Positions 17,321 through 49,255 of a DNA stretch of 64,000 bases are shown here, one piece after another. Under the pieces are notes generated by a model that did not search any database, was not told the DNA's origin, and saw only the letters and a list, made by a program, of their open reading frames with translations. A program made the translations under genes and the position numbers. The DNA comes from Acidobacteriota bacterium (GTDB taxonomy: Bacteria; Acidobacteriota; UBA890; WLXD01): NCBI GenBank assembly GCA_012103255.1, contig WLXD01000001.1, forward strand, positions 1,067,501 through 1,131,500. Direction: 5' to 3'. Numbering within the stretch: the stretch's first letter is position 1; each line of letters starts with the position of its first letter.

Positions 17321-18709
17321 CTATTCGCCGGGCTCGGGCTTGCCTGCGGCCTCGGCCGGGTCGATACCGTAGGCCTTTAGCTTGCGGTACAGATTGCTCC
17401 GCTCGGTATCCAGGGCCTGTGCCGTCTGACGGACATTGCCCCCGAATTCGCGCAGCTTCGTCATGATGAGTCGCCGCTCGAAGATCTCGCGGGCCTCGCG
17501 TAGAGACATGTCCTGGTCGAGCGCGGCATCGGCGGTAAGAGACGCATCGACCATCGGCTCCACTTCAGGCGCCTCGATGACGTCGCTGGCGGCCATGATG
17601 GCGAGTCGCTCGCAGACGTTGCGTAGCTCGCGTACGTTGCCCGGCCAGCGATGCGAGACCAGAAGGGCAAGTGCTTCGTGACTCAAGCGCTTCGTGGTTT
17701 GGCCGTATTCTTCGGAGTACTCCGCGAGGAAACGGTCTGCCAGGAGCGGGATGTCGTCCCGGCGCGCTCGAAGGGGCGGCACTCTGAACGGAATGACGTT
17801 CAGTCGGTAGTACAGGTCTTCGCGGAATCGCCCTCCACGGATTTCCTCTTCGAGATCCTTGTTGGTGGCCGCGATCACCCGCACGTCGACCTCGCGCGTG
17901 TCGTTTGAGCCGACAGGCTCGAAGCGCTGTTCCTCGAGCACGCGGAGAACCTTTGCCTGCGTCTTCAGACTCATGTCGCCGACTTCATCGAGGAAGAGGG
18001 TTCCGCCGTCCGCCAACTCGAACTTGCCCGACTTGTCGGTCACCGCTCCGGTGAACGCACCGGTTACGTGGCCGAAGAGTTCCGACTCGATCAAGTCCTC
18101 GGGGATCGCGGCGCAGTTGACCTCGACGAATGTCGCGTCGTGTCGTCGTGACAGCGCGTGGATCCGTCGTGCTACTAACTCCTTGCCGGTGCCGTTTTCG
18201 CCGAAGATGAGCACACGGCCGTTGCTCGGCGCAGCTCGATCAACCTGCCCGCGCAGCGCGGCGATGATGTCGCTGTCTCCGACGATGTCGACACCGTGAC
18301 TGACCTCGGCGCGGAGGCGCAGGTTCTCGTGCTCCAAAGCCCGCTTTCGCAGCGCATTCGCGACGACGAGCAGCACGCGGTCGAGCGACAACGGCTTCTC
18401 GATGAAGTCGAAGGCCCCGAGCTTGGTGGCTTTCACCGCGGAGTCGATGCTGCCGTGGCCGGAGATCATGACGATCTCGCTGCCGACGGCCTGTTTGCCG
18501 AGCTCGGCGAGCACGTCCAGGCCATCGATTCCCGGCAGCCAGATATCGAGCAGAACAACATCGAAGTCCTCACGCGTGAGTCGTTCGATGGCTGCTTCGC
18601 CACTCTCCACGGCGTCCACACGGTGGCCCTCGTCGGTGAGAACGCTGGTCAGCGACGATCGCACATTGCGTTCGTCGTCGACGATGAGGATCTTGCCGCG
18701 ACTGCTCAA
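17321..18709 (-). CDS. ntrX: NtrX-like sigma-54-dependent response regulator
   Basis: A 462-residue NtrC-family regulator. The receiver domain (about 1-120) has the acidic pair D11/D12 and phospho-acceptor D55 in VVLLDIWLPG. The AAA+ domain has Walker A GENGTGKE, the sigma-54-contacting loop GAFTGA, Walker B GGTLFLDEVGDM, and the arginine-finger region YYRLNVIPFRVPPLRARRDD in pieces. A Fis-type helix-turn-helix ends the protein (NVRQTAQALDTERSNLYRKL). It follows ntrY by 7 bases, so the two form a two-component pair. NtrYX systems respond to nitrogen or redox and envelope cues in proteobacteria; the signal here is unknown. Confidence 0.93.
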   Translation of the reverse strand: MSSRGKILIVDDERNVRSSLTSVLTDEGHRVDAVESGEAAIERLTREDFDVVLLDIWLPGIDGLDVLAELGKQAVGSEIVMISGHGSIDSAVKATKLGAFDFIEKPLSLDRVLLVVANALRKRALEHENLRLRAEVSHGVDIVGDSDIIAALRGQVDRAAPSNGRVLIFGENGTGKELVARRIHALSRRHDATFVEVNCAAIPEDLIESELFGHVTGAFTGAVTDKSGKFELADGGTLFLDEVGDMSLKTQAKVLRVLEEQRFEPVGSNDTREVDVRVIAATNKDLEEEIRGGRFREDLYYRLNVIPFRVPPLRARRDDIPLLADRFLAEYSEEYGQTTKRLSHEALALLVSHRWPGNVRELRNVCERLAIMAASDVIEAPEVEPMVDASLTADAALDQDMSLREAREIFERRLIMTKLREFGGNVRQTAQALDTERSNLYRKLKAYGIDPAEAAGKPEPGE

Positions 18710-18716
18710 AGTTTCG

Positions 18717-20945
18717 TTAGCCAGTCGGTAGTTCGATAACGAACGTGGCGCCGCGCGGCACGTTGTCGACCACCCGGATATAGCCGCGGTGGTCTGAGAC
18801 GATTTGACGCACGATGGCGAGACCCAGGCCCGTTCCGTCGCGGTCGCGCGAGAAGTAGGGGACGAAGAGCTGTTCCTTGTCTTCTGCCCGAATGCCCGGC
18901 CCGTTGTCTGTCACGGCGATGCGCACGACCTCGAGGTCATCATCGAATACGGTGCTGACGGCGAGCTTGCCGGTGCCATCCATGGCTTTCATTGCGTTGT
19001 CGAACAGATTCGTGAAGGCGCGACGCATCTGGTCCGGATCGAGCTCGAGGCGCGGCAGGTCGCGCCCGTAGTGGCGTGTGATTTCGATGCCTGGGTGCGT
19101 GTCCGGATATGGGCGCAGGCTGTCGTCCAATAGCTGGTGCAGGTCCATGGCCACGGGCTGGGCGGAGGGCATACGCGCGAACCGGGTGAACTCTTCAACC
19201 AGCGATTTCAGCGTAGCCACTTCCTGCAGAATCGTTCGCGTGCCTTCCTCGATCACGGCGTACTCGGCTTCGGCGCCCGCAGCGCGTTGATAGCGCCGGG
19301 CGATGCGCTGGGCAGAGAGCTGGATCGGTGTGAGGGGGTTGCGAATCTCGTGTGCCACTCGGCGTGCCACTTCACGCCAGGCAGCCGCCTTTTGCGCGCC
19401 GATCAGGCCGGTGAGATCGTCCAGCACCGTCACGGTGCCGAGGTAATCACCGGACTTGTCGCGCAAGCTCGAGCAGTGCGCCGCGAGGGTGAGCCGCCGT
19501 CCGTTGGCGTCAAGCGAGAGTTCCTCTTCAAGTGCCGCCAGCCGGGGTCTCGCATGCTGCATCAGTGTGCGCAGCGGAGCCATGTTCTCGCCGGCAAACA
19601 CCGTGTCGTATGGCGCCCCTACCGCGTCAGCCTGTTCGATTCCCAGCATCTCAGAAGCGGCCGGGTTGATCGTCGTGATGTGTCCGTGCGCGTTCACCGA
19701 GACCACGCCGGTGGCGATGTTGGCGAGCACCGATTCCATGTAGCTGCGGCGCTCCTCCAACTCGGCAATCGTCTGTTCGAGGTCGATCCGGGATTGTTCG
19801 AGACTCCGCTGACCCACGCCCAGGTCGCTGGTCATCCGGTTGAACGACTCAACCAGCACGCCAAGTTCGTCGTTAGTGACTGCGTCCACTCGATAGTCGA
19901 GATTGCCTGCTGCGACCGCCCGCGTGCCTTCCGACAGCTTACGAATGGGCACCGTGACCCCGCGCGCGAGGTACAGGCCAAGCCAAACCGCGCCGAAGAT
20001 GATCAGAAGACTGATCAGCAGGAAGACCAGCAGGTACGCGTTCGTTATGGGCTCCTTGCCCTGCACGCCCTGCTCGTAGTTGCCGTAGAGCTGCTCGATT
20101 GCCGCGGCTTCCGCGGCGAGCGCCGCGTCCACCATGCGGCCAACGATCAGCACGCCTTCCACTTCCTGGGTGCCGATGGCGAACACCGGGGAGCCGATAA
20201 TCAACAGGCGGTTGCGACCCTCCACGTCGATCGTGCGCCTGAATTGCTGACCGCTCTGCGCCAACTGGAGCAGGTCGGCATCAACGGCAAGATGGTGCTC
20301 TCGCCCCTGCAGGAAACTGCCCTCGCGAACCACGGCGTTGATTTGGGATTCGCCGTTCCGATAGAAGGTGGCGATGTCGAGATCGTAGTGCGACTCAGCG
20401 AGTCGGTACCCGAGGTCTCGCTCCAGCACCTGCCAGGCCTCGTTGCCCACGTAGACGCCGTCGGTGACCTGCTCGGCGAGCATCACGCCGATATCCAATA
20501 CCTCGTCCTCTTCGGCAAGAATCGCGAGGCGTGACAGCTCGCGAGCCCTCTCGTACATCGCCGTGACGTCAGACGAGAACCAGCGATCGACGCTCTTCTG
20601 GATGAAGTCGCTCGCGACCAGGAACAGGAGGATTGACGGCACGAGTGCGAGGCCGACGTACGTCGCCATCAGCTTGGTCTGGAACTTGGACCCGAGCTTG
20701 CGATGTCGCCGATCGACGTAGAGCTTGATGAGATTGCGGCCCAGCACGAACAACAGCGTCAGCAAAAGGACGATGTTGAGCACCGTGATCGAGTGCAGCA
20801 GCACAGCGGGCACACCGGCATCGATCGACTGCTGGAGCGCAATCTCGATGGCGACGAACGACACCACCAGAAACGCTAGTCCGGCAATGACGAGCCGCCG
20901 ATGGCGGGCGCGGCGCTGATACTCGGAGGGTGGTGCGGTGCTCAT
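18717..20945 (-). CDS. ntrY: NtrY-like sensor histidine kinase
   Basis: A 742-residue membrane kinase with the NtrY layout: N-terminal hydrophobic helices (about 18-38, 48-68, 90-112), a periplasmic sensor region of about 200 residues, another helix (LLVFLLISLLIIFGAVWLG), a HAMP linker (RGVTVPIRKLSEGTRAVA), a PAS domain (ESVLANIATGVVSVNAHG), the phospho-acceptor H box HEIRNPLTPIQLSAQR, and a HATPase_c domain with N box NLFDNAMKAM and DNGPGI and GTGLGLAIV glycine motifs. It should phosphorylate the NtrX protein encoded 7 bases downstream. It lies 125 bases downstream of lpxC on the same strand. Confidence 0.93.
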   Translation of the reverse strand: MSTAPPSEYQRRARHRRLVIAGLAFLVVSFVAIEIALQQSIDAGVPAVLLHSITVLNIVLLLTLLFVLGRNLIKLYVDRRHRKLGSKFQTKLMATYVGLALVPSILLFLVASDFIQKSVDRWFSSDVTAMYERARELSRLAILAEEDEVLDIGVMLAEQVTDGVYVGNEAWQVLERDLGYRLAESHYDLDIATFYRNGESQINAVVREGSFLQGREHHLAVDADLLQLAQSGQQFRRTIDVEGRNRLLIIGSPVFAIGTQEVEGVLIVGRMVDAALAAEAAAIEQLYGNYEQGVQGKEPITNAYLLVFLLISLLIIFGAVWLGLYLARGVTVPIRKLSEGTRAVAAGNLDYRVDAVTNDELGVLVESFNRMTSDLGVGQRSLEQSRIDLEQTIAELEERRSYMESVLANIATGVVSVNAHGHITTINPAASEMLGIEQADAVGAPYDTVFAGENMAPLRTLMQHARPRLAALEEELSLDANGRRLTLAAHCSSLRDKSGDYLGTVTVLDDLTGLIGAQKAAAWREVARRVAHEIRNPLTPIQLSAQRIARRYQRAAGAEAEYAVIEEGTRTILQEVATLKSLVEEFTRFARMPSAQPVAMDLHQLLDDSLRPYPDTHPGIEITRHYGRDLPRLELDPDQMRRAFTNLFDNAMKAMDGTGKLAVSTVFDDDLEVVRIAVTDNGPGIRAEDKEQLFVPYFSRDRDGTGLGLAIVRQIVSDHRGYIRVVDNVPRGATFVIELPTG

Positions 20946-21070: not shown

Positions 21071-21979
21071 TCAGATCGACGCCGGGACCGCGACGGTGCG
21101 CCGCGAGGCGATCTCGTAGACGATGTCGTCCCACGTCACCGCCTCCCACGCCTCGGGCGTGTCGCGGATCTTCTCGACCAGACCGGCGTGCAGCCCATGT
21201 CCCGCACGGTAGGCAACGACGTGCCCCAGGAGCGGCGCGCCAAGAAGCGTGAGGTCGCCAATCGCGTCCATGATCTTGTGGCGCACGAACTCGTCCGGGA
21301 ACCGCAGCTGAGGGTTCAGGATCGAGTTTTCTCCGACGACGATCGCGTTCTCCATTGATCCACCAAGGGCAAGCCCAAGGGACCGCATGGTCTCGACGTC
21401 GCGCAAGAAACCGAAGGTACGAGCGGGCGCCAACTGTTCGGTGTAGGCACGCGGCGTTACCAGAAAGGTCTCGCGTTGGATGCCGATCAGCGGATGATCG
21501 AAGTCGATCGTGTACGAGATCTTGAGTCGCTCCGCCGGATAGACGGCGATGAACTTGTCGTCTTCATCGACGCGAAGCGGTTCGACGATCTTGATGAATG
21601 TGCGCGCGGCTTGCTGGCGCTTGAGTCCAGCCTCGTGCAACAGGTAGACGAACGGCGTCGCCGAGCCGTCCATGATCGGTACTTCGGGGCCCTCCAGCTC
21701 GATCAGGAGGTTGTCGACTCCGAGGCCCGAAGCCGCCGACAGTACGTGCTCGACCGTGCTGATCGAAGCTTCCCCGTCGGTGAGCTGCGTGGCGAAGCTC
21801 GTCTGATGCAGGTTCTCGATCGCGACGGCGATCTCTCGCCCGCCCAGATCGACGCGGCGGAAACGAATCCCGGTGCCGGGAGCTGCCGGTAGCAGGCGCA
21901 TCTTGACGCGCTCACCGGAGTGCAGCCCAATCCCCGCGCAACTCACTTCGCGGCGGATCGTCTTCTGTGTCAGAGTCAT
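21071..21979 (-). CDS. lpxC: UDP-3-O-acyl-N-acetylglucosamine deacetylase LpxC
   Basis: A 302-residue zinc enzyme catalysing the committed step of lipid A synthesis, evidence for an LPS-bearing outer membrane. Zinc ligands are visible in the first domain (STVEHVLSA) and the second (VRHKIMDAIGDL, His and Asp). SGERVKMRLLPA near the start and GAPLLGHVVAYRAGH near the end also fit. The frame is open to 22045, but MTLTQKTIRREVSCAGIGLHSGE at 21979 fits the family and has a GGAAG ribosome binding site just upstream. Confidence 0.96.
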   Translation of the reverse strand: MTLTQKTIRREVSCAGIGLHSGERVKMRLLPAAPGTGIRFRRVDLGGREIAVAIENLHQTSFATQLTDGEASISTVEHVLSAASGLGVDNLLIELEGPEVPIMDGSATPFVYLLHEAGLKRQQAARTFIKIVEPLRVDEDDKFIAVYPAERLKISYTIDFDHPLIGIQRETFLVTPRAYTEQLAPARTFGFLRDVETMRSLGLALGGSMENAIVVGENSILNPQLRFPDEFVRHKIMDAIGDLTLLGAPLLGHVVAYRAGHGLHAGLVEKIRDTPEAWEAVTWDDIVYEIASRRTVAVPASI

Positions 21980-22141
21980 CGCAACTTCCGGGAAGATGGA
22001 ACCTGTGTACCCTGAAAGCAAAACCCATGCCGGGCGTCGACTCAATCGGAAAAGTCTTTTGCTACAGGTAACTTACGGCGATCTGAGGTGCTGGTGCCGA
22101 TCGTTCCTGTGGGGTTTTTGCATCAATCTCCGCCCGGAAGG

Positions 22142-22159
22142 TGTTGCATTTCTGCAACA
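22142..22159. promoter_or_regulatory. Inverted repeat TGTTGCA-N4-TGCAACA between lpxC and a glycosyltransferase gene
   Basis: A perfect 7-bp inverted repeat with a 4-base spacer in the 281-base divergent gap between lpxC and the glycosyltransferase gene at 22261. It could be an operator for a dimeric regulator or a small hairpin. No flanking promoter is convincing. Elsewhere in the gap I see nothing else definite. Confidence 0.4.
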
Positions 22160-23361: not shown

Positions 23362-23380
23362 GGATTGCTGTGGGTAATCC
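23362..23380. promoter_or_regulatory. Inverted repeat upstream of the sigma-54 activator gene
   Basis: GGATT-N9-AATCC at 23362-23380 lies 52-70 bases before the chosen start of the activator gene. It may be a regulatory site for that gene. No sigma-54 or sigma-70 promoter of normal spacing is evident beside it. Confidence 0.25.
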
Positions 23381-23431
23381 GTTTCCCATACGTTGCGACA
23401 AGTCTTTCCTAGCCGCTCCCTGGAGCTTCTC

Positions 23432-24775
23432 TTGTCGCAAAACGCTGTTTTTCCACGCCGCGTTCTCGTCCTCGATTCGCATCCGGATCGAGGTCGCGTG
23501 CGTGCTGCGCTCGTTGGCAGCGGGTTCGACGTGGTGATGGCGGGGAGCCTCGACGAGGTCAGCGAGATCCTGCGCGGTCGCTACGAGGCCGATCTCCTCG
23601 TTCTCGGTCAGGGCGATGGCGCCGCCATGCCAGAGACCATTGCTGTCGCACGGACGGTACGACCTACGCTACCGGTCGTAGTGATTGCAGACGCACAGGA
23701 CGATGCGGACTCCGTGCAGGGCGGCGTGGGCGTGGTGCAGCGAGATCGACTCGAGGCCGAGTTCGATCGCGTCGTCGTGGACGTGCTCGCAGCCTCCGAT
23801 GTGGAAGACGAGACGTTTATTGCGGTCTCCGAGCCGATGCGCGCCGTCCGAAGTCTGGTGGAGCGCGTTGCCGACACCGACGTTCCGGTGTTGATCACGG
23901 GTGACAGTGGGGTTGGCAAAGAGGTGGTGGCGCGATCGCTGCACTGCGAGTCCCGGCGCGCGTCGATGCCCTTCGTGAAGGTCAATTGCGCCGCACTGCC
24001 CGATCAGCTTCTCGAATCTGAGCTCTTCGGCTACGAACGAGGCGCTTTCACGGGTGCCGATCGCGATAAGCCCGGCAAGTTTGAAATCGCCAACGGCGGG
24101 ACGATCTTCCTCGATGAGATTGGCGAGATTGCCGCCGGCACGCAGGCCAAGCTTCTGCAGGTGCTCCAGGACGGACGCTACTACCGCCTCGGAGGCAATC
24201 GGGAGGTCGGTGTGGACGCGAGAGTCGTCGCGTCGACGAACGTAGACCTGGAAGCTGCGATCGACGGCGGCAGCTTCCGCAAGGACCTCTTCTATCGGCT
24301 CAACGTGGTGCGGGTAGAGGTGCCACGGTTGCGGGAACGACGAGATGAGATCCCGCATCTCGCCGATCACTTCCGACGGCGCTATGAGGCCGAGTGCGAG
24401 CGACAGATCGGGCCGCTCGACGCCAACACTCTCGCGGTACTAGCGGCCCACGATTGGCCGGGCAACGTCCGCGAACTCGAGAACGTCATCCGCAGAATGG
24501 TCGTGCTCGAGGATGTCGCGTCGGTGGTTGCAGACCTGCGTCGGACAGAGGCACCGGCCGGCACGGTGGCCGTCGACGAGCTACTCGGCGCCGATGGCGC
24601 GCTACCACCTTTGAAAGACGCCTCGCGACTCGCGGCGCTGGAAATCGAGGGCGTGTTGATTCGCCGTGCCCTGGACGAGACCGGCTGGAACCGCCGCCGC
24701 GCGGCCGAGCTACTTCAGATCAGCTACAAGGCGCTTCTCTACAAGATGCGCGACTGTGGCATTCGGGCCGCCTGA
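23432..24775 (+). CDS. Sigma-54-dependent activator with degenerate receiver domain (EPS regulator candidate)
   Basis: About 447 residues. The N-terminal 110 residues are receiver-like (RVLVLDSHPDRGRVRAALVGSGFDV...) but, where an Asp is expected at the end of strand 3, the sequence reads LLVLGQGDG, so the phospho-acceptor is missing. The AAA+ domain is complete: Walker A GDSGVGKE, GAFTGA for sigma-54 contact, Walker B GGTIFLDEIGEI, and R-finger region FYRLNVVRVEVPRLRERRDE. A Fis-type helix-turn-helix (WNRRRAAELLQISYKALLYKM) binds DNA. The start TTG at 23432 has GGAG 6 bases upstream; the frame opens at 23393. It lies directly before a consensus sigma-54 promoter and the EPS operon, so it is the likely activator. 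Confidence 0.92.
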   Translation: MSQNAVFPRRVLVLDSHPDRGRVRAALVGSGFDVVMAGSLDEVSEILRGRYEADLLVLGQGDGAAMPETIAVARTVRPTLPVVVIADAQDDADSVQGGVGVVQRDRLEAEFDRVVVDVLAASDVEDETFIAVSEPMRAVRSLVERVADTDVPVLITGDSGVGKEVVARSLHCESRRASMPFVKVNCAALPDQLLESELFGYERGAFTGADRDKPGKFEIANGGTIFLDEIGEIAAGTQAKLLQVLQDGRYYRLGGNREVGVDARVVASTNVDLEAAIDGGSFRKDLFYRLNVVRVEVPRLRERRDEIPHLADHFRRRYEAECERQIGPLDANTLAVLAAHDWPGNVRELENVIRRMVVLEDVASVVADLRRTEAPAGTVAVDELLGADGALPPLKDASRLAALEIEGVLIRRALDETGWNRRRAAELLQISYKALLYKMRDCGIRAA

Positions 24776-24798: not shown

Positions 24799-24812
24799 CA
24801 TGTGGGCACATG
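24799..24812. promoter_or_regulatory. Perfect inverted repeat CATGTG-GG-CACATG, candidate activator binding site
   Basis: The repeat starts 24 bases after the sigma-54 activator gene and lies about 135-150 bases upstream of the -24/-12 promoter at 24946. That is the usual position of enhancer sites for NtrC-type activators, and a dyad suits a Fis-type dimer. Binding by the adjacent activator is inference. Confidence 0.55.
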
Positions 24813-24945
24813 TTTTCACAACGCCACGCGACCGTACGGGACGGGAGCAGACAAGGCGTGACAGCCGCGCCGTCCACAGCGTCGCGGAAACGGCCAGGAC
24901 CGGCCTGCGCAAACGGAACGGCGTCGCGGCCGAGCGCGCTGGGTG

Positions 24946-24961
24946 TGGCACGCCAATTGCT
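24946..24961 (+). promoter_or_regulatory. Sigma-54 (-24/-12) promoter of the EPS operon
   Basis: TGGCACG-CCAA-TTGCT matches the sigma-54 consensus TGGCAC-N5-TTGC(A/T) at every position, with the required 10 bases between the GG (24947-24948) and GC (24959-24960). Transcription would start around 24972, leaving a 60-base leader before the export gene at 25034. It sits just downstream of a gene for a GAFTGA-containing activator, which strengthens the assignment. Confidence 0.88.
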
Positions 24962-25033: not shown

Positions 25034-26098
25034 ATGATCACGAACAGTTCGCATCTACGGCGATCCATGGGTTCGCTGACGTCTTTGGGGCTGGTTCTCT
25101 GCCTGGCGGCCACAGCGTTCGTCTCGGCGGGTGTGGAGGCCCAGGAAGCAAAGCGCAAGAAGACCAAGCCACCGACACTCCGGGTGCGTGTGGTGGGGGG
25201 CGGGAACGGTCTTCCTGTTGTGGTCACGAACTCCGCCGGCGAGCTTGTTGAGGGCGGAGTCGCCGACGGGCAACTCGAGCCTGAGGTCGAAAACTGGCTG
25301 GTGGATGGGCCGCCGGTGACCGAGTCGTGGCTTGAAGGCGCGGCGCCCATGTCCGCGCCCGCCCCTGCTGCGACGTCCGAACTTCCACGGTCCGCGACGC
25401 CGGTCGGGCAAACGCCTCCGGCTGGCGGATCGTCAGAGCTCGTCGGCGTGCAGCACTACATGGAATCGGTTGGCGAAGCCGCCCCCGCGACACCTACATC
25501 CTCACCGACAACGACATCGGCTCCGCGCCTTCCTGCATCCGCGACCTCGTCGGCATCGCTCCGTGAAAACAGCGGCGATGCGTCCGTGATGACGAGTTCG
25601 AATCCGGCCGCCGAGGGGAGATACCGCCTCGGCCCGGGTGATCAGATTGACATCCATGTCTGGCGAAACCCGGAACTCACGCGCAACGTGCCCGTGCGGC
25701 CGGACGGACTGATCTCTCTGCCTCTGGCAGGGGAGCTGATGGCCTCCGGGAAGACGGTTGCCGAACTGGAAGCCGAAATCACAGCTGTGCTTGGCGAGTT
25801 CGTGCAGTACCCGACCGTCACCGTGTCGGTAACCGAAGTTCACGGGATGGTCGTTTACGTCGTGGGTCGCGTTGCGAGTCCCGGCACCTTGCAACTCGAT
25901 CGCCCGATCAACGTGATTCAGGCGATCGCGATGGCAGGTGGGCTGCAGGAATTCGCAGATCGCAACGGCGTGGTCGTGATTCGCACCGTCAACGGGCAGG
26001 AAACGCGCCTGCCGTTTCCTTATGGCGACGCGTTGAAGGGGAAAAGCGCTGCCGCACCATTCACCCTCCAATCGGGAGACGTTATCTATGTTCCGTAG
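25034..26098 (+). CDS. Polysaccharide export protein (Wza/XrtA-type, Poly_export + SLBB)
   Basis: About 354 residues. The N-terminus has a basic stretch and a hydrophobic signal segment (LGLVLCLAATAFVSAGVEAQ) but no clear lipobox, unlike classical Wza. A Pro/Ala/Thr-rich linker covers roughly 100-190. The polysaccharide export domain follows (YRLGPGDQIDIHVWRNPEL, PVRPDGLISLPLAGE), then an SLBB domain (VYVVGRVASPGTLQLDRPINVIQAIAMAGG in pieces). It should form the outer-membrane/periplasmic channel for the EPS. The frame is open to 24800, but ATG at 25034 gives the signal peptide and lies after the sigma-54 promoter. It is the first gene of the operon. Confidence 0.9.
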   Translation: MITNSSHLRRSMGSLTSLGLVLCLAATAFVSAGVEAQEAKRKKTKPPTLRVRVVGGGNGLPVVVTNSAGELVEGGVADGQLEPEVENWLVDGPPVTESWLEGAAPMSAPAPAATSELPRSATPVGQTPPAGGSSELVGVQHYMESVGEAAPATPTSSPTTTSAPRLPASATSSASLRENSGDASVMTSSNPAAEGRYRLGPGDQIDIHVWRNPELTRNVPVRPDGLISLPLAGELMASGKTVAELEAEITAVLGEFVQYPTVTVSVTEVHGMVVYVVGRVASPGTLQLDRPINVIQAIAMAGGLQEFADRNGVVVIRTVNGQETRLPFPYGDALKGKSAAAPFTLQSGDVIYVP

Positions 26099-27344
26099 CC
26101 AATCCCGTCGTCACGTGGGTATGTGCGCGCGCGTCGCCGCCTTGAGTCTCGCTCTCGGCGTCGCAACTCCTCTGCTGGGTCAGCAGTCCGACTCCACTGC
26201 CGGTCGCCCGGATTTCACTCCTTCGATCACGTTCCTCGGGTCCCTCGAGACGAACCCTGAACGCCTACCTGGAGAGACCGGTCGCACGAAGTTCTTTTCG
26301 GCCAGCGGCGAACTGCCATTCCGCGTCGACTCGCCCCGTTGGACCTTCACGCTCACCTATCGTCCCGAGTACCAGTACAACCAAGACGACGATGCGCTGA
26401 CGTCGTTCGATCATTCGGGAAGCTTCGCGCTGCGCGGCAAGTTGTCGCCTCGAACGGATGTCGAGATCGAGGGCGATGCCTACGCCTCCAATGAACTGCG
26501 TGGCCTCGATGCCAACGACATCGTGGTTCCACGCTCGCGTCGAGTCCGCGGCACGGTTGATGGCGAGCTTCGCCAGCGACTCTCCACTCGGGACACGCTC
26601 CGATTTCGAGGCGGCTACGAGCGCCTCTCGTTCCCCGACGGCGATTTCATCGATAGCGATACCGGGTATGCGGGTGCGAGCTATAGCCACGCCGTTTCCG
26701 CGCGGACGAGCCTATCCCTGGGTGGGAACGTCCGGTTGGCGACTTTCGACAGCGGCACACGATCGCGCTCGATGACCACGACCGTTGGCGGCTTGTTTCA
26801 GCTCGCCGAACGCACCGACTTCGAAGTCAGTGGTGGCGCGCTCTGGATTCAGCAGGATGCAGGCGAGGGCTGGCTCGGCGTTGAGCAGCCGGGATTTACT
26901 GTCCGGGGCCGGCTGCGCCACAGACTTGAGCGTGTGTCGCTGCAGCTTCTAGGGGAGCGAGACCTCGGCACGAGCAGTGGGCTCGGTCAGGCCACTCTGC
27001 GGGACCGCATCGTGGGTTCAGTCGGGTGGTCCGACAACCGATGGGGACTCGTCGGGCTTGGCGGCTACTCGCGCAATCGCGGTTTCAGTTCAGGCGCGGT
27101 CGACGGTCCGACGATCCAGACGTTGTCTGCCTGCGGACGCACGGCGGTTCGTGTCAGCCGCGCGGTGGCCGTGGTGGGCGTGCTCGCCTACGCGCATCAG
27201 CTCGGCGAGATCGTGCAGGACACGACCGACACTTTCAGGGTCTCGCTGGGTGTGAGGCTGCAAGCGAATGGACTGCCGCTCGCGCTGGCCAGTTCGACCA
27301 ACGATTTCAGTCGAATCGGGAGGAGCGCTCGTGCTTCGTGCTGA
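26088..27344 (+). CDS. Outer-membrane beta-barrel protein of the EPS locus
   Basis: A 418-residue protein with a signal peptide (VAALSLALGVATPLLGQQ) and then alternating hydrophobic/polar strands rich in Tyr, Arg, Gly and Ser with no internal hydrophobic helix, as in outer-membrane beta-barrels. XrtA-type EPS loci commonly carry such a barrel next to the export protein; a role in passing polymer across the outer membrane is inference. It overlaps the export gene by 11 bases and the Wzz gene by 14, so all three are probably translated together. Confidence 0.75.
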   Translation: MFRSQSRRHVGMCARVAALSLALGVATPLLGQQSDSTAGRPDFTPSITFLGSLETNPERLPGETGRTKFFSASGELPFRVDSPRWTFTLTYRPEYQYNQDDDALTSFDHSGSFALRGKLSPRTDVEIEGDAYASNELRGLDANDIVVPRSRRVRGTVDGELRQRLSTRDTLRFRGGYERLSFPDGDFIDSDTGYAGASYSHAVSARTSLSLGGNVRLATFDSGTRSRSMTTTVGGLFQLAERTDFEVSGGALWIQQDAGEGWLGVEQPGFTVRGRLRHRLERVSLQLLGERDLGTSSGLGQATLRDRIVGSVGWSDNRWGLVGLGGYSRNRGFSSGAVDGPTIQTLSACGRTAVRVSRAVAVVGVLAYAHQLGEIVQDTTDTFRVSLGVRLQANGLPLALASSTNDFSRIGRSARASC

Positions 27345-28893
27345 AGAGATGACGCCGGCCGATCTGGCGCAGGTGGTCTGGGCACAACGCTGGGCCGTCG
27401 TGGCCTTGGCGCTTGTCGGCGCCGCACTCGGCTACGGCTATTCGTTGTTTGTGCCTGATCGATTCACCGCGGAGACGCTTGTGCTCGTCGAGGACTCCCA
27501 GCTCTCGCGTGACTATGTGCAGACCACGAGCACGACGAGCCTGCGGACGCGACTGGACACGATGAGCGAACAGGTACTGAGCAGGACTCGACTCGAGGGT
27601 TTGGTACGCGAGTACGATTTCGTTAGCGCTGGCGGCTCGCTCGAAGATGCGGTCGCCAAGGTTCGGCGGCGCATCACGCTAGACACCATCGGTCAGGACG
27701 GATTCAGGCTCTCGTTCTCAGACGAGGATCCGCGCATGGCAGCGCGAGTGGCGAACGCGCTCGCTGCAGGCTTTATCAACCAGAGCACCGAAGCGATTCG
27801 GGCGCAGACGCGCACCACCGCCACCGGATTGCAGCAGCAGGCTGATGATCTTCAGCGACAGCTCAGCAACAAGGAAGCGGAGATCGAGGCGTTCAAGGCC
27901 GCCAACCTTCACGCGTTGCCAACCCAACTGGGCGACAACCTGGACGAAGCGCAGCAGTTGCGCCAGCAGATTCGCGACAACACATCCCGGATGATCGTGG
28001 TGCGGGCGCAGCTCGATGCGTTGCCGGAGCCGGTGACCTCGGTCGCCGCCGCTCCGGATGAGGTCACGGCCATCGAGGTCGCGCGGCAGATTCTCGGCAC
28101 AACCTCAGCAGCGCAACTGGACGGCAAACTGGAAACAGAACACCCGCTCGTGCAGTTGGAAGCGCGGCGCTTGCAGTACGAGTCGCTCCTACGCCATTAC
28201 ACGGCCCGCCACCCCGACGTTCGCCAACTTGCGGCGGAGATCGCAGCGCTTGAGGACACGGTGGCAACGGCAGCGCCATTCGTTCCGGAGCTGAGCTCGG
28301 TGGCAATGCCGGCGGCGCCGAGTTCCACGATCGCTCGCGATCGCTCCGCGTTTGAAACAGAGATCAGCAACCTTGAGTCGTCGCGAACCGCGATGCTGGG
28401 GGACCTGGCGGAGTACGAGCGCCGCGTCGCCGCTGCTCCCGGGGTCGAGCGGCAACTCCGTGAGTTGGAGCGCGAGCGCGATGGTCTGTTGCGGTCGCAT
28501 ACCGATCTTGCGAGCCGCACCGTCGAGGCGGACCTGGCGAACGATCTGCAGACTGCTGAAATTCCGACTAGCCGGTTCCGTGTGGTGGATCCAGCAGCCG
28601 TTCCTACTCAGCCCACCTCGCCATTGCGCCTCTACTTTCTTATCGGCGGCGCTTTGGCGGGTTTCGGCCTTGTCGTTGGCGCGACTTTCCTGCGCGAGGT
28701 GACGCTCCAGCCGGTCAATAGCGCCGATGAGCTCGAGCGCTTCGGCGGCATGGACGTTCTGGCGAGTATTCCGGTGATCCAGACGCCGCAGCGTGTTCGC
28801 CGTCAGCGTCTTATCCGGGTCGCGTCGACGGCTGCCGTGGGCGCGGTGTTGGTTGTCGTGTTCGCCCTGCGCATCATGACGAGGGGCTTCTGA
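27331..28893 (+). CDS. Wzz-like polysaccharide chain-length determinant
   Basis: About 520 residues. A first membrane helix (WAVVALALVGAALGYGYSLFVP, about 18-39) is followed by the Wzz periplasmic start (RFTAETLVLVEDSQL), long coiled-coil segments through the middle, and a late helix pair (LYFLIGGALAGFGLVVGATF and AAVGAVLVVVFALRI). It should control polymer length together with the kinase encoded next. GTG at 27331 with GGGAGGAG just upstream is the likely start; the frame opens at 27268. The stop overlaps the kinase ATG. Confidence 0.87.
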   Translation: MLRAEEMTPADLAQVVWAQRWAVVALALVGAALGYGYSLFVPDRFTAETLVLVEDSQLSRDYVQTTSTTSLRTRLDTMSEQVLSRTRLEGLVREYDFVSAGGSLEDAVAKVRRRITLDTIGQDGFRLSFSDEDPRMAARVANALAAGFINQSTEAIRAQTRTTATGLQQQADDLQRQLSNKEAEIEAFKAANLHALPTQLGDNLDEAQQLRQQIRDNTSRMIVVRAQLDALPEPVTSVAAAPDEVTAIEVARQILGTTSAAQLDGKLETEHPLVQLEARRLQYESLLRHYTARHPDVRQLAAEIAALEDTVATAAPFVPELSSVAMPAAPSSTIARDRSAFETEISNLESSRTAMLGDLAEYERRVAAAPGVERQLRELERERDGLLRSHTDLASRTVEADLANDLQTAEIPTSRFRVVDPAAVPTQPTSPLRLYFLIGGALAGFGLVVGATFLREVTLQPVNSADELERFGGMDVLASIPVIQTPQRVRRQRLIRVASTAAVGAVLVVVFALRIMTRGF

Positions 28894-30308
28894 TGAACGC
28901 CAACCCTGAGACCTATACGAGGGCGGCCACTTCAGGAGTCGGCGCACCGGCCTTTGAAGTGGTCACGCGTGTCGTGGATGCCGTGCTTGAGCGACGAGGC
29001 CTCACGCGCGTGAACTGCGGCGAAGGCGCTTCCGAACTGCTCACAGCGGTGAGCGACCGACTGCCTTCCACGTTTCGCTGGCAGCAGGTAGAGAACCCCG
29101 CCAACCCCGCAGAGCTCTGGGCGGCGGTGATGGAGGGCGACGTGCCCGCCGGTGAGGAGCCGGGGCTCCGTCTGAGAGAAATTTTGTGGCACCGGTCGAG
29201 CGCCGGCGTCTTCACCGTTCTCGGAGTGGTTGCCGCACCCGATGTTGCAGATGAAGTGCTGGGTGCCCTCGAAGAGTTGGCCGGCCTCGAGCCGATGCTG
29301 CAGTTGGTGATCGTGGCCGACCAGGCAGTGCACGAACGCGCAACCGAGGCAGCGGCTCGACTCGCCATGCGCGTTCGGAATTCTTATGTCGTGGCGGAAT
29401 CACTGCAGACTCATGCAGCTCGCGAGGAGGCCGAACCGGTTCCTGTGGCTAAGCCCGCTCCCGCATCACCAGTCGCCGAGCCGGATCCGGTCACATCCGC
29501 GGAATCTGACGTCACACCGGCCTCGCGGCGGGTGCCCGTCGCGGGGTCACCCGGCTCCGGAGTCACGATGGAGGCGGCAGGACAGCGGACGTTCGATCCC
29601 TTCCGTGACAGCTTCGTCGAACCTTCGATCAACACGCCGCAACTGCTGCCGGTATTGAGCGATCCGCACGGCTCTCACGCCGAGTGGTTCAGGGTCCTTC
29701 GACTTCGTCTGGAGGACTGGGTGCGCGCGCAGGGCGGCTCGCCTCAAGCGATCGCGTTGGGCGGCGCAGAGGCTGGCGTGGGCAAGACTTTCGTGGCCGT
29801 CAACCTAGCTCTCCTATGGGCCAACAGCACTTTCGAACGGGTATGCCTCGTCGACGGCGATCTTCGTCGGCCGCAGTTCAACTCAATCTTCGAGATTCCC
29901 CAGCGTCCTGGCCTCGCGGATGTACTGGCGCGCCGAGCCGCGGCCGAGGAATGCGTGCGCTACGTCCCCGAGGTTGGGCTACACGTAATGCCTGCGGGGC
30001 GCTCCGGCAACCCCCGTCAACTCGTGAACCCGGATCGGGTTCAACGTGTGATCACGTCGCTCAAGAGTGCCTACGACGTGGTGATCCTGGATGGTCCACC
30101 TATTGCTGGCCTTGTGGATGCACATTCCTTCGCGAGCGCCTGTGACGGCACCTTGCTCGTTGTGCGGGCCGGGAAGTCACGACTTCAGGCAGTACAGAAG
30201 GCGACAGAAGACTTGGGATCGGACCGTCTTATTGGTGCTGTCGTGAACGGCGCCGAGCGTGGGGTCAAGAGTGCCTACACCCGATATCGGCGACTCCTCC
30301 GCGGATAA
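28893..30308 (+). CDS. CpsD/CapB-type bacterial tyrosine kinase of the EPS locus
   Basis: A 471-residue cytoplasmic P-loop protein. The first 270 residues are poorly conserved with a Pro/Val/Ala-rich linker. The kinase domain has Walker A GGAEAGVGKT (about 289-298), Walker A' CLVDGDLRRPQF and Walker B VVILDGPP. The C-terminal tail has only two tyrosines in YTRYRRLL, a short version of the autophosphorylated Tyr cluster. BY-kinases cycle with Wzz proteins to control EPS polymerisation and export. Its ATG overlaps the Wzz stop (TGATG). Confidence 0.88.
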   Translation: MNANPETYTRAATSGVGAPAFEVVTRVVDAVLERRGLTRVNCGEGASELLTAVSDRLPSTFRWQQVENPANPAELWAAVMEGDVPAGEEPGLRLREILWHRSSAGVFTVLGVVAAPDVADEVLGALEELAGLEPMLQLVIVADQAVHERATEAAARLAMRVRNSYVVAESLQTHAAREEAEPVPVAKPAPASPVAEPDPVTSAESDVTPASRRVPVAGSPGSGVTMEAAGQRTFDPFRDSFVEPSINTPQLLPVLSDPHGSHAEWFRVLRLRLEDWVRAQGGSPQAIALGGAEAGVGKTFVAVNLALLWANSTFERVCLVDGDLRRPQFNSIFEIPQRPGLADVLARRAAAEECVRYVPEVGLHVMPAGRSGNPRQLVNPDRVQRVITSLKSAYDVVILDGPPIAGLVDAHSFASACDGTLLVVRAGKSRLQAVQKATEDLGSDRLIGAVVNGAERGVKSAYTRYRRLLRG

Positions 30309-30342
30309 CAGCGGAGTCGACGCGCAGGCAACCCGTGCCGAC

Positions 30343-31824
30343 ATGGGACGCCTGATGAAGCACTCGTCGATCTACGTGATCGGCGGGATGCTCAACCGTG
30401 TGGGCGTGTTCCTGCTATTGCCGGTGTACACGTCGTACTTGTCGCTCGCCGAATACGGAACACTCGAGCTCTTCTACGCCACCGCCGCGGTGGCGTCTGG
30501 CTTGCTGTCGGCCGGCTTGGCACACGCCACGCTGCGCTTCTATTTCGAGTACGAGGAGGAAGCCGAGCGCAACGCGGTCGTGAGCACCAACCTCGCGCTC
30601 GGAGGTCTTCTGGGCGTCGTCGGGGCGGTCGGCATCATGGCCGCACGCGAACCTCTTGCCGCGACCGTGTTCGGGACTCCGGGTGCCTCTACGGGTCTTG
30701 TGATCATCGCGATCACGATGGCCTTGGAGATGTCGACTCAGATCTGTTTGGGATTCGTACGCGCCCGCGAGGCGTCGAAGACTTTCCTGGCCATCGTGCT
30801 CGCCCGTCTGGTCGTCCAGGTCGCGGCCAACAGCTATGCGGTCATCGGCCTTGGAGCCGGAGTGACGGGTGTCCTCACGGGCAACGCACTGGCTGTGGGC
30901 TTTGGCTGGCTCTGTGCGATCACCTACACGGTGCGCCGCTGCGGGTTGCGTGTCGATCTGTCCAAAGCAGATCCGATCCTGCGCTACAGCCTGCCGTTTC
31001 TTGCGAGCACGATCGTGGCGGTGCTGGCCGCCAATGTGGATCGACTGGTAATTCGAAAGTTGTTGAGCCTCGAGGCGCTGGGGCTGTTCGCGCTGGCCCT
31101 CAAGTTCAGCATCCTGCCGGAGCAGCTGATCGGTGAGCCATTCAATCGTGCGTACGGTGCGTTGCGCTTCTCGATCATGCGTCAGGAGAACGCCGCGCTC
31201 GTGCAGGCGAAAGTCGTTCGTCTGTTGCTCGCCGTCGCAGTGTTCACGGCGCTCGGCGTGCAGCTCTTCACGGTCGACGTATTGCGGTTCATGTCGGGTG
31301 TCGAATTCCGCGGCGCGGTGGCGTATCTGCCGTGGTTGTTGATCGCGGCGATTATCCGGATCGTGACCTATCCGCTCCAGACCGGGATCCTCGTCCGGCG
31401 GCGTACCGGGCGACTCTTCCACATCAATCTAGCCAACTCGTGCCTCTACATCGCGGGCAGTTTGCTCCTGATTCGCTACTTCGGCGTTGCAGGCGTTTGT
31501 CTTGCCATGGTCGGATCTGCGAGCTTCACGATGATCGCCACGGATCGCGCGGCGCAGGCGCACTTCCCGGTGCGGTACGAGTGGGATCGACTCGTCCGGA
31601 TCATCTTGATCGGCGCGGGGGCATTCCTTGCCGGGCTTCCGTTGGTAACCGCGGACACGTCCGCCGTGATCCCCCTGAAGATGCTGGTGCTGGCCGGATT
31701 CGCCGTGGCGCTGGTGTTCTCTGCCGCTTTTGACGCGGACGAGCGAACGATGGCTCGCGACTGGGCTTACGGGCAGCTGCAAGGCGCGTTCGGCAGGTGG
31801 CCAGCGGGCCAGGAGAGTCATTGA
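30343..31824 (+). CDS. Wzx-type oligosaccharide flippase (MATE/MOP superfamily)
   Basis: About 493 residues, almost entirely membrane helices (12-14 segments), beginning LMKHSSIYVIGGMLNRVGVFLLLPVYTSYLS, the usual N-terminus of Polysacc_synt flippases. It should move lipid-linked repeat units across the inner membrane for polymerisation by the Wzy-like protein at 43113. The start chosen is ATG at 30343 for fit to the family. The frame is open to a GTG at 30259, which would overlap the kinase gene. The stop overlaps the next ATG (TGATG). Confidence 0.88.
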   Translation: MGRLMKHSSIYVIGGMLNRVGVFLLLPVYTSYLSLAEYGTLELFYATAAVASGLLSAGLAHATLRFYFEYEEEAERNAVVSTNLALGGLLGVVGAVGIMAAREPLAATVFGTPGASTGLVIIAITMALEMSTQICLGFVRAREASKTFLAIVLARLVVQVAANSYAVIGLGAGVTGVLTGNALAVGFGWLCAITYTVRRCGLRVDLSKADPILRYSLPFLASTIVAVLAANVDRLVIRKLLSLEALGLFALALKFSILPEQLIGEPFNRAYGALRFSIMRQENAALVQAKVVRLLLAVAVFTALGVQLFTVDVLRFMSGVEFRGAVAYLPWLLIAAIIRIVTYPLQTGILVRRRTGRLFHINLANSCLYIAGSLLLIRYFGVAGVCLAMVGSASFTMIATDRAAQAHFPVRYEWDRLVRIILIGAGAFLAGLPLVTADTSAVIPLKMLVLAGFAVALVFSAAFDADERTMARDWAYGQLQGAFGRWPAGQESH

Positions 31825-32858
31825 TGCGACGCGGCAAACGCGAGCGCGTGGCGAGCGTTCTGGGCAGGCTGAACGTGCTCGAGCCGATGGGCTCGCTGGG
31901 CTCCCGGGTGCAATCGGAACTACCGATCCTGGCGTATCACCGAGTTGTCGATATCGGTGTGGAGTCTGATTTTCCCTTCGATCCCGAGCTTGTCAGCGCG
32001 AGTCCCGCGGATTTCCGCGCTCAGATGACGTACGTGCGCGATCACTTCAACGCGATCACCTTCGGCGACGTCATACGCAGCCTGGACGGCGATCACGAAT
32101 TGCCGCCGCGACCGATCATCGTCACGTTCGACGACGGGTTTCTGGACAACTACACAAACGCCTATCCGGTGCTCCGGGATCTCGAAATGCCGGCCACGAT
32201 CTTCGTCTCGACCGGCTACATCGGCTCGGTTGAAACCTATTGGTACGACCGCGTCGCCTATGCGATCTACCGCGGTCCGGCAGGACCCTTTGTTCTGGGT
32301 TCCACGCGGTTCGAACTAACCGACGTGGCGTCGCGCCGTCGCGCCACTGCCGACGCGATTCGATTCCTTCGCGGCGTGGCCGATCCCGTGCGGCGGGCAC
32401 ATCTAGGCGCCCTCGAAGAACGTATCGACTGCACGGTTCGCGAAGCGGATCGCCACTTGAGCCAGGCAATGGACTGGTCACAGGTTCGTGAACTACACGA
32501 CGCGGGCATCGAGATCGGTTCGCACACGGTGTCGCACCCCGCGCTCTCGCAGTGTGACGACGAGACCCTTGCCTTCGAATTGTGGGAGTCCCGCCGAGAA
32601 CTCGAGACTCGCCTGGGTGCGCCGACGCCTGTCGTCGCGTACCCCTTCGGCGGACCCGGCGAGTATGACGGCAGGGTGATGGCTGCTGCTACGCAGGCGG
32701 GATATCGGCTCGCCGCGTCCTACATCAGCGGTCGCAATCTCCTTGGCGCCCTTTCTTCTTTTGAACTGCGGCGCCTGCACGTTGAGCGCTACACGGATCT
32801 GGCGACGTTCGCCTCGATGCTCCAGTTGCCGCAACTCTTCGCGGGAGCTGCCCGATGA
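31824..32858 (+). CDS. NodB-type polysaccharide deacetylase
   Basis: A 344-residue carbohydrate esterase 4-like protein: LPILAYHRVVD, the catalytic/metal motif VTFDDGFLDNY, and the zinc-binding H-x3-H in SHTVSHP, followed by VVAYPFGGPGEYD. The metal ligands are intact, so it is probably active in removing acetyl groups from a lipid-linked or polymeric glycan. A GAGAG ribosome binding site precedes the ATG, which overlaps the flippase stop. It has no clear signal peptide, so it may act in the cytoplasm or need another start. Confidence 0.87.
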   Translation: MRRGKRERVASVLGRLNVLEPMGSLGSRVQSELPILAYHRVVDIGVESDFPFDPELVSASPADFRAQMTYVRDHFNAITFGDVIRSLDGDHELPPRPIIVTFDDGFLDNYTNAYPVLRDLEMPATIFVSTGYIGSVETYWYDRVAYAIYRGPAGPFVLGSTRFELTDVASRRRATADAIRFLRGVADPVRRAHLGALEERIDCTVREADRHLSQAMDWSQVRELHDAGIEIGSHTVSHPALSQCDDETLAFELWESRRELETRLGAPTPVVAYPFGGPGEYDGRVMAAATQAGYRLAASYISGRNLLGALSSFELRRLHVERYTDLATFASMLQLPQLFAGAAR

Positions 32859-34018
32859 CAGGCAATGCGTTCAGCGATGGCTTGCTGGTTGTAGGACTCG
32901 TGTTCTTGGCGTTCCATTTCATGGGCTACCCCCTGCTCGTGCGCGCCCTGGCCCGCCGCGGGACCACTGTGGAACTCGACACGGACGAGCCTTTTCTGCC
33001 GACGATTTCGCTCATTATCGCGGCCTACAACGAGGCCGCGGTCATCGCCGGCAAGCTCGAGAACTCGCTGGCGCTCGACTACCCGGCCGATCGCCTGCAG
33101 ATCGTGGTGGTTTCGGATGGCTCAACGGATGAGACAGCGGCAATCGCCGCCTCCTTTGCGGGCCGCGGCGTGGTGGCGCTCCATGACCCGCCGCGCAACG
33201 GGAAGTCGGCGGCCCTGAATCGGGGGGTCGACGCCGCGACGGGAGAGATCGTCGTCTTCTCGGACGCCAACAACGATTTCAGCGCGACGGCGCTGCGGGC
33301 GCTGGCCGCGCATTTCGTGGACCCGCAACTCGGCGGCGCATGCGGTCGCAAGTCGATCACCGCGGCGGGCGACCGCCAGGCCTCCGAAGGCGACAGCCTG
33401 TACTGGCGCTACGAGTCTGCGATCAAGAAGTGGGAGAGCGACCTCGGCATCATGACCACCGCCGACGGCGAGATCTTTGCGGTGCGACGCGAACTCTGGC
33501 AGCCCATACCGCCCGAGGTCATCAACGACGATGCCGAGATCACCTTCACGATGGTGAACGCCGGATATCGAATCGTTTATGAGCCGGACGCCGTTTCAAG
33601 CGAACTCGCTTCCGCACAGCTGGAAGAGGACTTTCGAGTCAAGGTGCGCATGATCGCTGGCGGATTCCAGACCGTGGCGCGCCACTGGCCGACCCTATTG
33701 CCGCCGCGTTCCGCGTTTGCCTGGGCGTTTCTTGCGCACAAGCTCTTGCGCTGGCTGGTACCGGTGCTGCTCGCGATGGTGGCGATCGGGTCGATCGCGA
33801 GAATCTCCACGGGCACCGGGGCGTTCCTGGTGGTTGGGCAGGTCCTCTTCTACGGGATCGCGTTGCTGGGATGGCAGGCGCGCAGCCGTGGCGAGTTGCC
33901 TCGGTGGAAGTACGTGCCGCTGTATTTCAGCCTTATGAACCTGGCGGCCCTTCTCGGATTGCGACGGTTCCTGGCCGGCGACGATGTGACGTCGATCTGG
34001 CAGAAGGCGGCGCGATGA
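32855..34018 (+). CDS. Membrane-bound GT2 glycosyltransferase
   Basis: A 387-residue processive-type family 2 transferase. An N-terminal membrane helix (about 8-28) precedes the GT-A domain: ISLIIAAYNEAAVI, VVVSDGSTDET, the FSDANND motif, TTADGEIFAVRREL and NDDAEITFTMVNAGY, which carries the catalytic acid. About three helices follow at the C-terminus. It resembles poly-N-acetylglucosamine synthase-like enzymes. It overlaps both neighbours by 4 bases (ATGA). Confidence 0.88.
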   Translation: MTGNAFSDGLLVVGLVFLAFHFMGYPLLVRALARRGTTVELDTDEPFLPTISLIIAAYNEAAVIAGKLENSLALDYPADRLQIVVVSDGSTDETAAIAASFAGRGVVALHDPPRNGKSAALNRGVDAATGEIVVFSDANNDFSATALRALAAHFVDPQLGGACGRKSITAAGDRQASEGDSLYWRYESAIKKWESDLGIMTTADGEIFAVRRELWQPIPPEVINDDAEITFTMVNAGYRIVYEPDAVSSELASAQLEEDFRVKVRMIAGGFQTVARHWPTLLPPRSAFAWAFLAHKLLRWLVPVLLAMVAIGSIARISTGTGAFLVVGQVLFYGIALLGWQARSRGELPRWKYVPLYFSLMNLAALLGLRRFLAGDDVTSIWQKAAR

Positions 34019-35075
34019 TCTCAAAAACCGCCCATCTCGGGCTCTCCGGAGTGCTCCGACACGAGATGCGCCAGCGGGCTGCAGCCGGCCATCGACAACA
34101 CCTCTACTTCTGCGTTGCGGACCACTACGAGCCGTATTGGGGCGGTGCGGGAACTGCACAGGCGCGAGCGATCGTCGCCGAGTGGGAGCGACGGTACCGC
34201 GAGATCGCGTCCGGGCACTGCGACTCGGCCGGCCGCGCGCCGCAGCATACCTACTTCTACCCGGAGGAGGAGTACGACCCGGCGATTCTCGATCGACTCG
34301 CGGCTCTGCGCGAGGCGGGACTCGGCGACGTCGAAGTGCACTTGCACCACGACGACGATCACGCCGCCGCGCTGCACGACAAGCTCAGGGGCTTCACCGA
34401 GCGACTCCACCGCGATCACGGCTTGCTGCGGCGATCGTCGGACGGCGAACTACGCTACGCCTTCATCCATGGCAACTGGGCGCTCGACAACTCGCATCCG
34501 GACGGCCGCTGGTGCGGGGTCGACAACGAGTTGCAGGTACTCGTCGACACGGGTTGCCGAGTGGACATGACGATGCCCTCGGCGCCACATGGTACTCAGA
34601 CACGTACCGTCAACTCGATCTACTTGCCCGCGGCCAAGCGGGCGCTCGGAAGTCGCACGACAGCGGTCGCCCCGTGCACGTTGGCACCTGGCGACGCGGC
34701 GATGAACTTCTGATGCTGCAGGGGCCACTGACCCTAGACTGGGGTCGTCGCAAGGCCGGTCTGTTGCCGCGGATCGAAAACGGCGAGCTGTCCGCTGACA
34801 ACCCACCTCTTGGTCGTAGAGTCGAACTCTGGCGGCGGTGCGGCATTGGCATCGCCGGTGCCGAGGACCACGTTTTCGTGAAAGTGCACACGCACGGAGC
34901 GCAGCCGCGCACGCTCGACGCGCTTCTCGGCGAAGGCTTGCCCGATGTTTGGACAGCGCTCGAACGCGACTATCGAGACACCGATGGCTGGGAGCTCCAC
35001 TACGTAACGGCGTGGCAGATGTACGAGGCTGTGAAGCGTCTGGCTACCGCGGTAGAAGTGAAGGCGGTCGCCTAA
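34015..35075 (+). pseudogene. Conserved EPS-locus protein of unknown function, apparent 1-base frameshift
   Basis: The first frame (34015-34713) encodes CVADHYEPYWGG, HTYFYPEEEYDP, VEVHLHHDDDH, FIHGNWALDNSHPDG and ends out of character after NSIYLPAAKRA. The continuation lies in the +2 frame: KSHDSGRPVHVGTW, LLMLQGPLTLDWGRRK, VFVKVHTHGAQ and LHYVTAWQMYEAVK, to TAA at 35073-35075. Joined, this is a single protein of about 353 residues. One missing base between about 34636 and 34650 explains it; adding a G to the GGG at 34640-34642 gives a smooth join. The His/Asp-rich motifs suggest a metal-dependent, deacetylase-like enzyme, but this is only a guess. The gene overlaps both neighbours. Confidence 0.72.
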
Positions 35076-38671: not shown

Positions 38672-38738
38672 CGTGCGGCCACGTCTGGCCACGAGCGCCC
38701 GGCAAACACTGTTTTGGGCTTCGTTCAGACCCACTAAT

Positions 38739-38773
38739 CGACGGACAATGGAGTGGGGAAGTTGTGTCCGTCG
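38739..38773. promoter_or_regulatory. 9-bp inverted repeat between the two beta-helix genes
   Basis: CGACGGACA (38739-38747) and TGTCCGTCG (38765-38773) form a perfect 9-bp dyad with a 17-base spacer, inside the only sizeable gap (129 bases) of the EPS operon. There is no T-tract, so it is not an obvious terminator. It could be an attenuating or mRNA-stabilising hairpin, or an operator for an internal promoter. Confidence 0.5.
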
Positions 38774-38800
38774 TTGGACGTTGAGGAGCCTGTGATTCCG

Positions 38801-44363: not shown

Positions 44364-44367
44364 TCAG

Positions 44368-49183: not shown

Positions 49184-49255
49184 GCGGTCAACTTTCGGGG
49201 CCCGACGCGCCGGGTCAAGAGGGTGGGAAAACTTTTTCCCTGCCGCGGTAAGGGG

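Follow-up and report, generated by a model that had tools for sequence, protein, structure and literature searches.

Control of exopolysaccharide (EPS) genes by sigma-54 activators encoded at the same locus is established, with SypG, BerB, EpsI/Nla24 and PrsR as described cases. SypG acts on several sigma-54 promoters of the syp polysaccharide cluster of Vibrio fischeri and requires a phosphorelay that phosphorylates its receiver aspartate (PMC10162802). BerB, a GAFTGA activator encoded beside the Bep exopolysaccharide cluster of Burkholderia cenocepacia, works with RpoN. It is a c-di-GMP-binding protein that lacks an N-terminal input domain, and its target is a second regulator, berA (PMC5552954). 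EpsI/Nla24, the NtrC-like protein encoded at the eps locus of Myxococcus xanthus and needed for EPS, binds c-di-GMP although some FleQ binding motifs are absent from it (PMC4877007). PrsR, with its partner kinase PrsK, targets PEP-CTERM genes through a sigma-54 box and an upstream activator motif, near exopolysaccharide genes (PMC1569441), and expression of pepA is RpoN-dependent (PMC9850573). More broadly, one survey casts sigma-54 as a controller of the cell exterior (PMC3162934), and the predicted Myxococcia targets of sigma-54 are enriched in both COG1596 (polysaccharide export) and COG0774 (LpxC) (PMC12316311); the string 'Acidobacteri' is absent from the main text of these last two papers.

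Here we describe an EPS locus in a 64-kb stretch of DNA (the window) and compare it with two genomes of the same genus (G001 and G002) and one of the same family (G003); the genome of the window is G000. We estimate a probability of about 0.8 that positions 24946–24961 are a working sigma-54 promoter of a wza-led EPS operon, run by the product of the adjacent gene through a palindromic enhancer.

A −24/−12 site between an activator gene and wza

The activator gene, the predicted promoter and the EPS genes are arranged as follows.

23432–24775, + strand: sigma-54 activator (enhancer-binding protein) with a degenerate receiver, an AAA+ domain with GAFTGA, and a Fis-type HTH
24946–24961, + strand: predicted sigma-54 −24/−12 promoter, TGGCAC-GCCAA-TTGCT (TGGCACGCCAATTGCT), an exact match conserved in G001 and G002
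25034–26098, + strand: wza-type exopolysaccharide export protein, first gene of the operon (PF02563, SLBB; TIGR03027 at 142 bits against a cut-off of 180)
26088–27344, + strand: outer-membrane protein (weak TIGR03016 match)
27349–28893, + strand: polysaccharide chain-length determinant Wzz (TIGR03007 below cut-off)
28893–30308, + strand: tyrosine autokinase (TIGR03018/TIGR01007-like; TIGR03018 below cut-off)
30271–47207, + strand: remaining EPS run, with flippase, deacetylases, glycosyltransferases, beta-helix proteins, Wzy-like ligase/polymerase and FemAB-like acetyltransferase; collinear with G001

A first-pass annotation had read a full-consensus promoter with exact GG/GC spacing in the gap between a GAFTGA activator gene and an EPS export gene, ahead of a 22-kb operon, and each of these points held. 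The −24 GG lies at 24947–24948 and the −12 GC at 24959–24960, the activator gene ends at 24775, wza begins at 25034 (a start set by comparison with the congeners), and the EPS gene run on the + strand spans 22.2 kb (25034–47207). The predicted +1, near 24972, would leave a 62-nt leader before the wza ATG. Relative to G001, reading frames within the run are broken near 34.62 kb and 35.76 kb, and a glycosyltransferase frame is disrupted at 42.1–43.1 kb; comparable genes at 7.4–24.8 kb are intact. These breaks may reflect either an assembly error or decay of the locus in G000.

The same annotation had named two observations that would speak against sigma-54 control, a genome without rpoN and a sigma-70 promoter serving the operon. 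The genome of the window encodes RpoN (PF04552, E 5e-63), and neither a sigma-70-like promoter nor a terminator was found between the activator gene and wza. The genome-wide motif scan that it had proposed as a check found eight exact TGGCAC-N5-TTGCW sites in 4.81 Mb. All eight end in TTGCT, a form for which Markov models of order 1–4 give an expectation of 1.5–2.6, and all are intergenic according to a codon-usage gene finder, compared with ~10.5% of sampled sequence, and four lie within ~2 kb of one of nine strong Sigma54_activat genes. These statistics combine pattern searches with ~216 kb of sampled sequence.

Could TGGCACGCCAATTGCT be a chance match, and could the operon be transcribed from further upstream or from a promoter that escaped detection? 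It is the single exact match in the window, and the 1.5–2.6 exact sites predicted for the genome allow for an occasional fortuitous one. Matches with up to two mismatches are likewise at chance level in the window (26 observed, 22.95 expected), and since counts in that class are no higher than chance, only the exact class is informative; mismatch counts were therefore rejected as a measure of chance, and a reversed-pattern control was set aside because its CpG content differs. Against a chance origin stand the intergenic position of every exact site and the persistence of this one in both congeners, where the spacer around it is just 52–64% identical yet the −24/−12 site keeps its position and full consensus (TGGCATGACGCTTGCA in G001, TGGCACAGCGATTGCA in G002). 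We consider such a coincidence extremely improbable and favor a sigma-54 promoter.

The remaining exact sites in this genome (L084–L092) include some upstream of a STAS-like gene, a GWxTD protein, an FG-GAP protein, small unknown genes and prepilin-like genes beside activators. A further site, TGGCATGAGCATTGCT (L091), precedes a prepilin-like gene and adjoins a response-regulator-type activator.

A palindrome at fixed distance and the activator that may bind it

The order activator-promoter-wza is kept in G001 and G002, with activators that are 72–73% identical, and the EPS genes of G000 and G001 follow the same order in the stretches compared. Alignment of the intergenic regions contained a second conserved block, the palindrome GGGNAAACNGTTTNCCC, best kept in G001 and G002. 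The elements discussed below are these.

23372–23387: palindrome copy GGGTAATCCGTTTCCC, 45–60 bp upstream of the activator start codon
24783–24798: possible second enhancer copy AGGCAGAAGTTTTCCT, weak, 21 bp (about two turns) upstream of the first
24799–24812: dyad CATGTGGGCACATG of the first-pass annotation, overlapping the putative enhancer
24804–24819: putative enhancer GGGCACATGTTTTCAC, a degenerate GGGNAAACNGTTTNCCC copy centered 135.5 bp from the −24 GG

The copy upstream of wza in the window is degenerate and matches 10 of 14 defined positions. Scored with a matrix trained solely on two sequences, the wza enhancers of G001 and G002, GGGCACATGTTTTCAC is nonetheless the best hit in the 330 bp upstream (score 13.4; background 0.023 per kb). 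Promoter, palindrome and neighboring activator are conserved together in two congeners, and the spacing from the center of the palindrome to the −24 GG is constant to 1 bp (134.5 bp in G001 and G002, 135.5 bp in G000). At the epsB promoter of G001 the best matrix hit lies 135.5–136.5 bp away (score 11.2). By comparison, the matrix peaked at 9.4 or below, and at other distances, on 12 control sigma-54 promoters, consisting of lpxC in the three genomes and nine promoters elsewhere in G000. The palindrome pattern was noted by eye in the wza alignment ahead of the genome scan. Allowing one mismatch or none, that scan located 9 copies in G000, and two of these fall inside the window, which makes up 1.3% of the genome and would be expected to hold 0.12. 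One of the two precedes the activator gene and the other precedes epsB. The former, GGGTAATCCGTTTCCC, is kept in related form in G001 and G002, and autoregulation of the activator gene is a possible reading of it. AGGCAGAAGTTTTCCT is the second-best hit in G000 (7.0, 156.5 bp) and the third-best in G001 (11.4, 155.5 bp), and is possibly a second enhancer copy. In noting that promoter, enhancer-like dyad and activator are adjacent, the first-pass annotation was right about what is present at the locus but not about the conserved element: CATGTGGGCACATG itself is not conserved in G002, and the overlapping 16-mer at 24804–24819 is better supported.

With a palindrome at fixed distance from both the wza promoters and the epsB promoter of G001, and the same motif in front of the activator gene, the neighboring activator is likely to be the regulator, and two EPS units are probably under its control. 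We infer from linkage and the shared motif that it is the cognate activator of the wza promoter. Its gene is taken to start at the TTG at 23432 since the congeners begin at an equivalent place. The protein has a Sigma54_activat domain with an intact GAFTGA and a C-terminal Fis-type HTH. Structure prediction gives the first 120 residues an alternating beta/alpha fold that resembles a receiver, in which the fourth helix is shortened; the full-length model best matches the folds of NtrX, FleQ and NtrC-family activators. VLDSH stands where receivers have VDD, LVLGQGDG where they have LLD, and there is no KPF; the activators of G001 and G002 are degenerate in the same way (LVLGQG, VLDSH, no KPF). 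An NtrC-type receiver would have a phospho-acceptor aspartate, a second acidic residue and a conserved lysine, and all three are thereby missing here. Given the loss of these residues, switching by a histidine kinase is unlikely, and the signal is probably of another kind, candidates being a ligand, for example c-di-GMP, a partner protein, and the amount of the activator itself. Input by c-di-GMP is plausible, given that this nucleotide is bound by both BerB and EpsI/Nla24, which are likewise EPS activators linked to their loci. LFRS, a c-di-GMP-related motif of FleQ, was not seen in the stretch beside the FleQ-aligned region of the activator. Binding is compatible with this absence; EpsI/Nla24 and VpsR both bind c-di-GMP though they do not have the full set of FleQ motifs (PMC4877007).

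The EPS regulator VpsR is among the sequence and structure matches of the activator. If the protein behaved like VpsR at sigma-70 promoters, or served mainly as a repressor, the −24/−12 site would be fortuitous. VpsR works independently of sigma-54, and its receiver is degenerate. The intact GAFTGA of the activator, the fixed distance between enhancer and −24/−12 site in three genomes, and the lack of a visible sigma-70-like promoter between the activator gene and wza all point the other way, and we judge this explanation very unlikely.

We next consider whether a different activator serves the wza promoter. Sigma-54 activators are able to act on distant promoters, and one is encoded ~6 kb away, in line with lpxC.

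17321–18709, − strand: NtrX-like activator, matching whole receiver-type activator models
18717–20945, − strand: histidine kinase, following lpxC
21071–21979, − strand: lpxC, identified by reading its sequence
22017–22032, − strand: sigma-54-like site CGGCATGGGTTTTGCT before lpxC (CGGCAYGAAAGTTGCT in G001 and G002)
22144–22157: lpxC dyad TTGCAGAAATGCAA, centered 119.5 bp from the −24 GG in all three genomes

The NtrX-like protein, with its match to whole receiver-type models and its adjoining kinase, could in principle drive a sigma-54-dependent wza promoter from a distance. The lpxC promoter, in line with this pair, however carries a different element. The dyad TTGCAGAAATGCAA is perfectly conserved in the three genomes and sits at its own spacing, the wza-type matrix scores low at the lpxC promoter, and the wza-type palindrome instead precedes the adjacent activator gene and epsB. 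Control of wza by this or another non-adjacent activator is unlikely, and lpxC, the kinase and the NtrX-like activator likely form a second sigma-54 circuit, for lipid A. In Desulfovibrio, lpxC is the single mapped target of the activator DVU2934 (PMC3333781).

Under the favored reading, that of a sigma-54 promoter run by the adjacent activator, the protein encoded at 23432–24775 would bind the GGGNAAACNGTTTNCCC-type palindrome ~135 bp upstream of the −24 element, and perhaps also the weaker copy two helical turns further up. By homology, DNA looping and ATP hydrolysis through the GAFTGA loop would then open the RpoN-polymerase complex and lead to EPS synthesis. Within the genus, the same activator would probably drive the separate unit of epsB and deacetylase too, and the palindrome preceding its gene may allow it to regulate itself. 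A non-kinase signal of the sort considered above would switch it.

The epsB unit and related loci

After the EPS run comes a second unit, encoded in the opposite direction.

47204–48097, − strand: XrtA-type polysaccharide deacetylase, second gene of the epsB unit (TIGR03006 above cut-off)
48098–49183, − strand: EpsB-type polyprenyl glycosylphosphotransferase (TIGR03013 above cut-off)
49225–49240: enhancer palindrome GGGAAAACTTTTTCCC, ~40 bp before the truncated epsB frame

The earlier proposal that sigma-54 and this activator switch the whole EPS operon is favored by the co-conservation of promoter, palindrome and activator in two congeners. The wza run may be a single transcript, while epsB and the deacetylase gene form a separate unit of opposite strand. 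In G001 an exact sigma-54 site, TGGCACGACGTTTGCT, lies just upstream of epsB, on the opposite strand of the locus. EpsB of G001 has 487 residues, and the match of the window's epsB starts at residue 126, leaving the first 125 residues absent. The promoter found in G001 is missing at epsB in the window and palindrome GGGAAAACTTTTTCCC is still there, suggesting that the epsB unit in G000 has probably lost its sigma-54 promoter; the loss of the 5′ end of the gene looks like a deletion. A candidate site at 49391–49406 (− strand) was rejected because it is inside the neighboring gene 49256–49756 (MoaC-like by eye).

Within the XrtA-type EPS gene set, TIGR03013 and TIGR03006 score above cut-off, and TIGR03027, TIGR03007 and TIGR03018 below. 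No match to exosortase (PF09721) was found in the genome, which is 95% complete. The activator reaches 295 bits with TIGR02915, against a cut-off of 502.6, and matches only from residue 136 of the ORF, so it was rejected as a PrsR; on this score and the missing exosortase, membership of a PEP-CTERM system was rejected as well.

In G003 (L046) the gene after the activator is not wza but another activator-like one. An exact sigma-54 site is present there, as is a palindrome, at 148.5 bp, and the contig then ends. A wider survey of the class, covering few genomes, gave no further wza-activator pairs, and most of 80 distant relatives have no EPS neighbors. Two loci in Rokubacteria (L116 and L117) encode activators that apparently lack the receiver aspartate near EpsB-like genes, with one-mismatch sigma-54 sites 30–35 bp before the latter and a Wza-like gene in L116. 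In L075, from the same phylum as the window, two tandem activators are followed by an exact sigma-54 site and then wza, wzz, kinase and epsB in a row. These arrangements suggest that linkage of an activator to EPS genes may recur. In three other genomes of the phylum (L079, L080, L081), an NtrC-like activator and an exact sigma-54 site precede a 233-aa gene common to all three (MLQGAVSHK...).

A wider reading can be offered tentatively. A pseudo-receiver activator that works independently of phosphorylation, by way of an undescribed operator, GGGNAAACNGTTTNCCC, ~135 bp from the −24 element, might coordinate two EPS units and its own gene, and through the Rokubacteria loci L116 and L117 might represent a recurring EPS switch. 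The evidence leaves this somewhat short of an even chance.

Comparison with described EPS activators

Our analysis would add a poorly sampled bacterial class to those in which exopolysaccharide is controlled by sigma-54 activators encoded at the locus. A motif first spotted by eye becomes a testable unit with a promoter, an operator, a distance between the two, a regulator and likely targets; with the operator motif, the regulon can be predicted in related genomes by sequence, and the activator points to a switching signal other than the usual phosphorylation.

The two statistical surveys cited above (PMC3162934, PMC12316311) predict polysaccharide export and LpxC genes as sigma-54 targets, as we do here. 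Among individual systems, SypG is a cluster-encoded sigma-54 activator of several sigma-54 polysaccharide promoters, as the present activator would be; it differs in clade and in its need for a receiver aspartate, a residue that the activator described here is without. In PrsK/PrsR, as here, a sigma-54 box and an upstream activator motif are found near exopolysaccharide genes. PrsR, however, has a receiver, a partner kinase, PEP-CTERM targets and a spacer of ~63 nt, compared with ~135 bp and no exosortase at the present locus. EpsI/Nla24 can be likened by description, as an NtrC-like, locus-encoded protein needed for EPS. BerB, like the activator here, is a GAFTGA protein encoded beside an EPS cluster, and it is independent of receiver phosphorylation, as the present activator probably is. 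Where BerB lacks an N-terminal input domain and works through berA, the present activator has a degenerate receiver, and the predicted promoter lies directly on the EPS operon.
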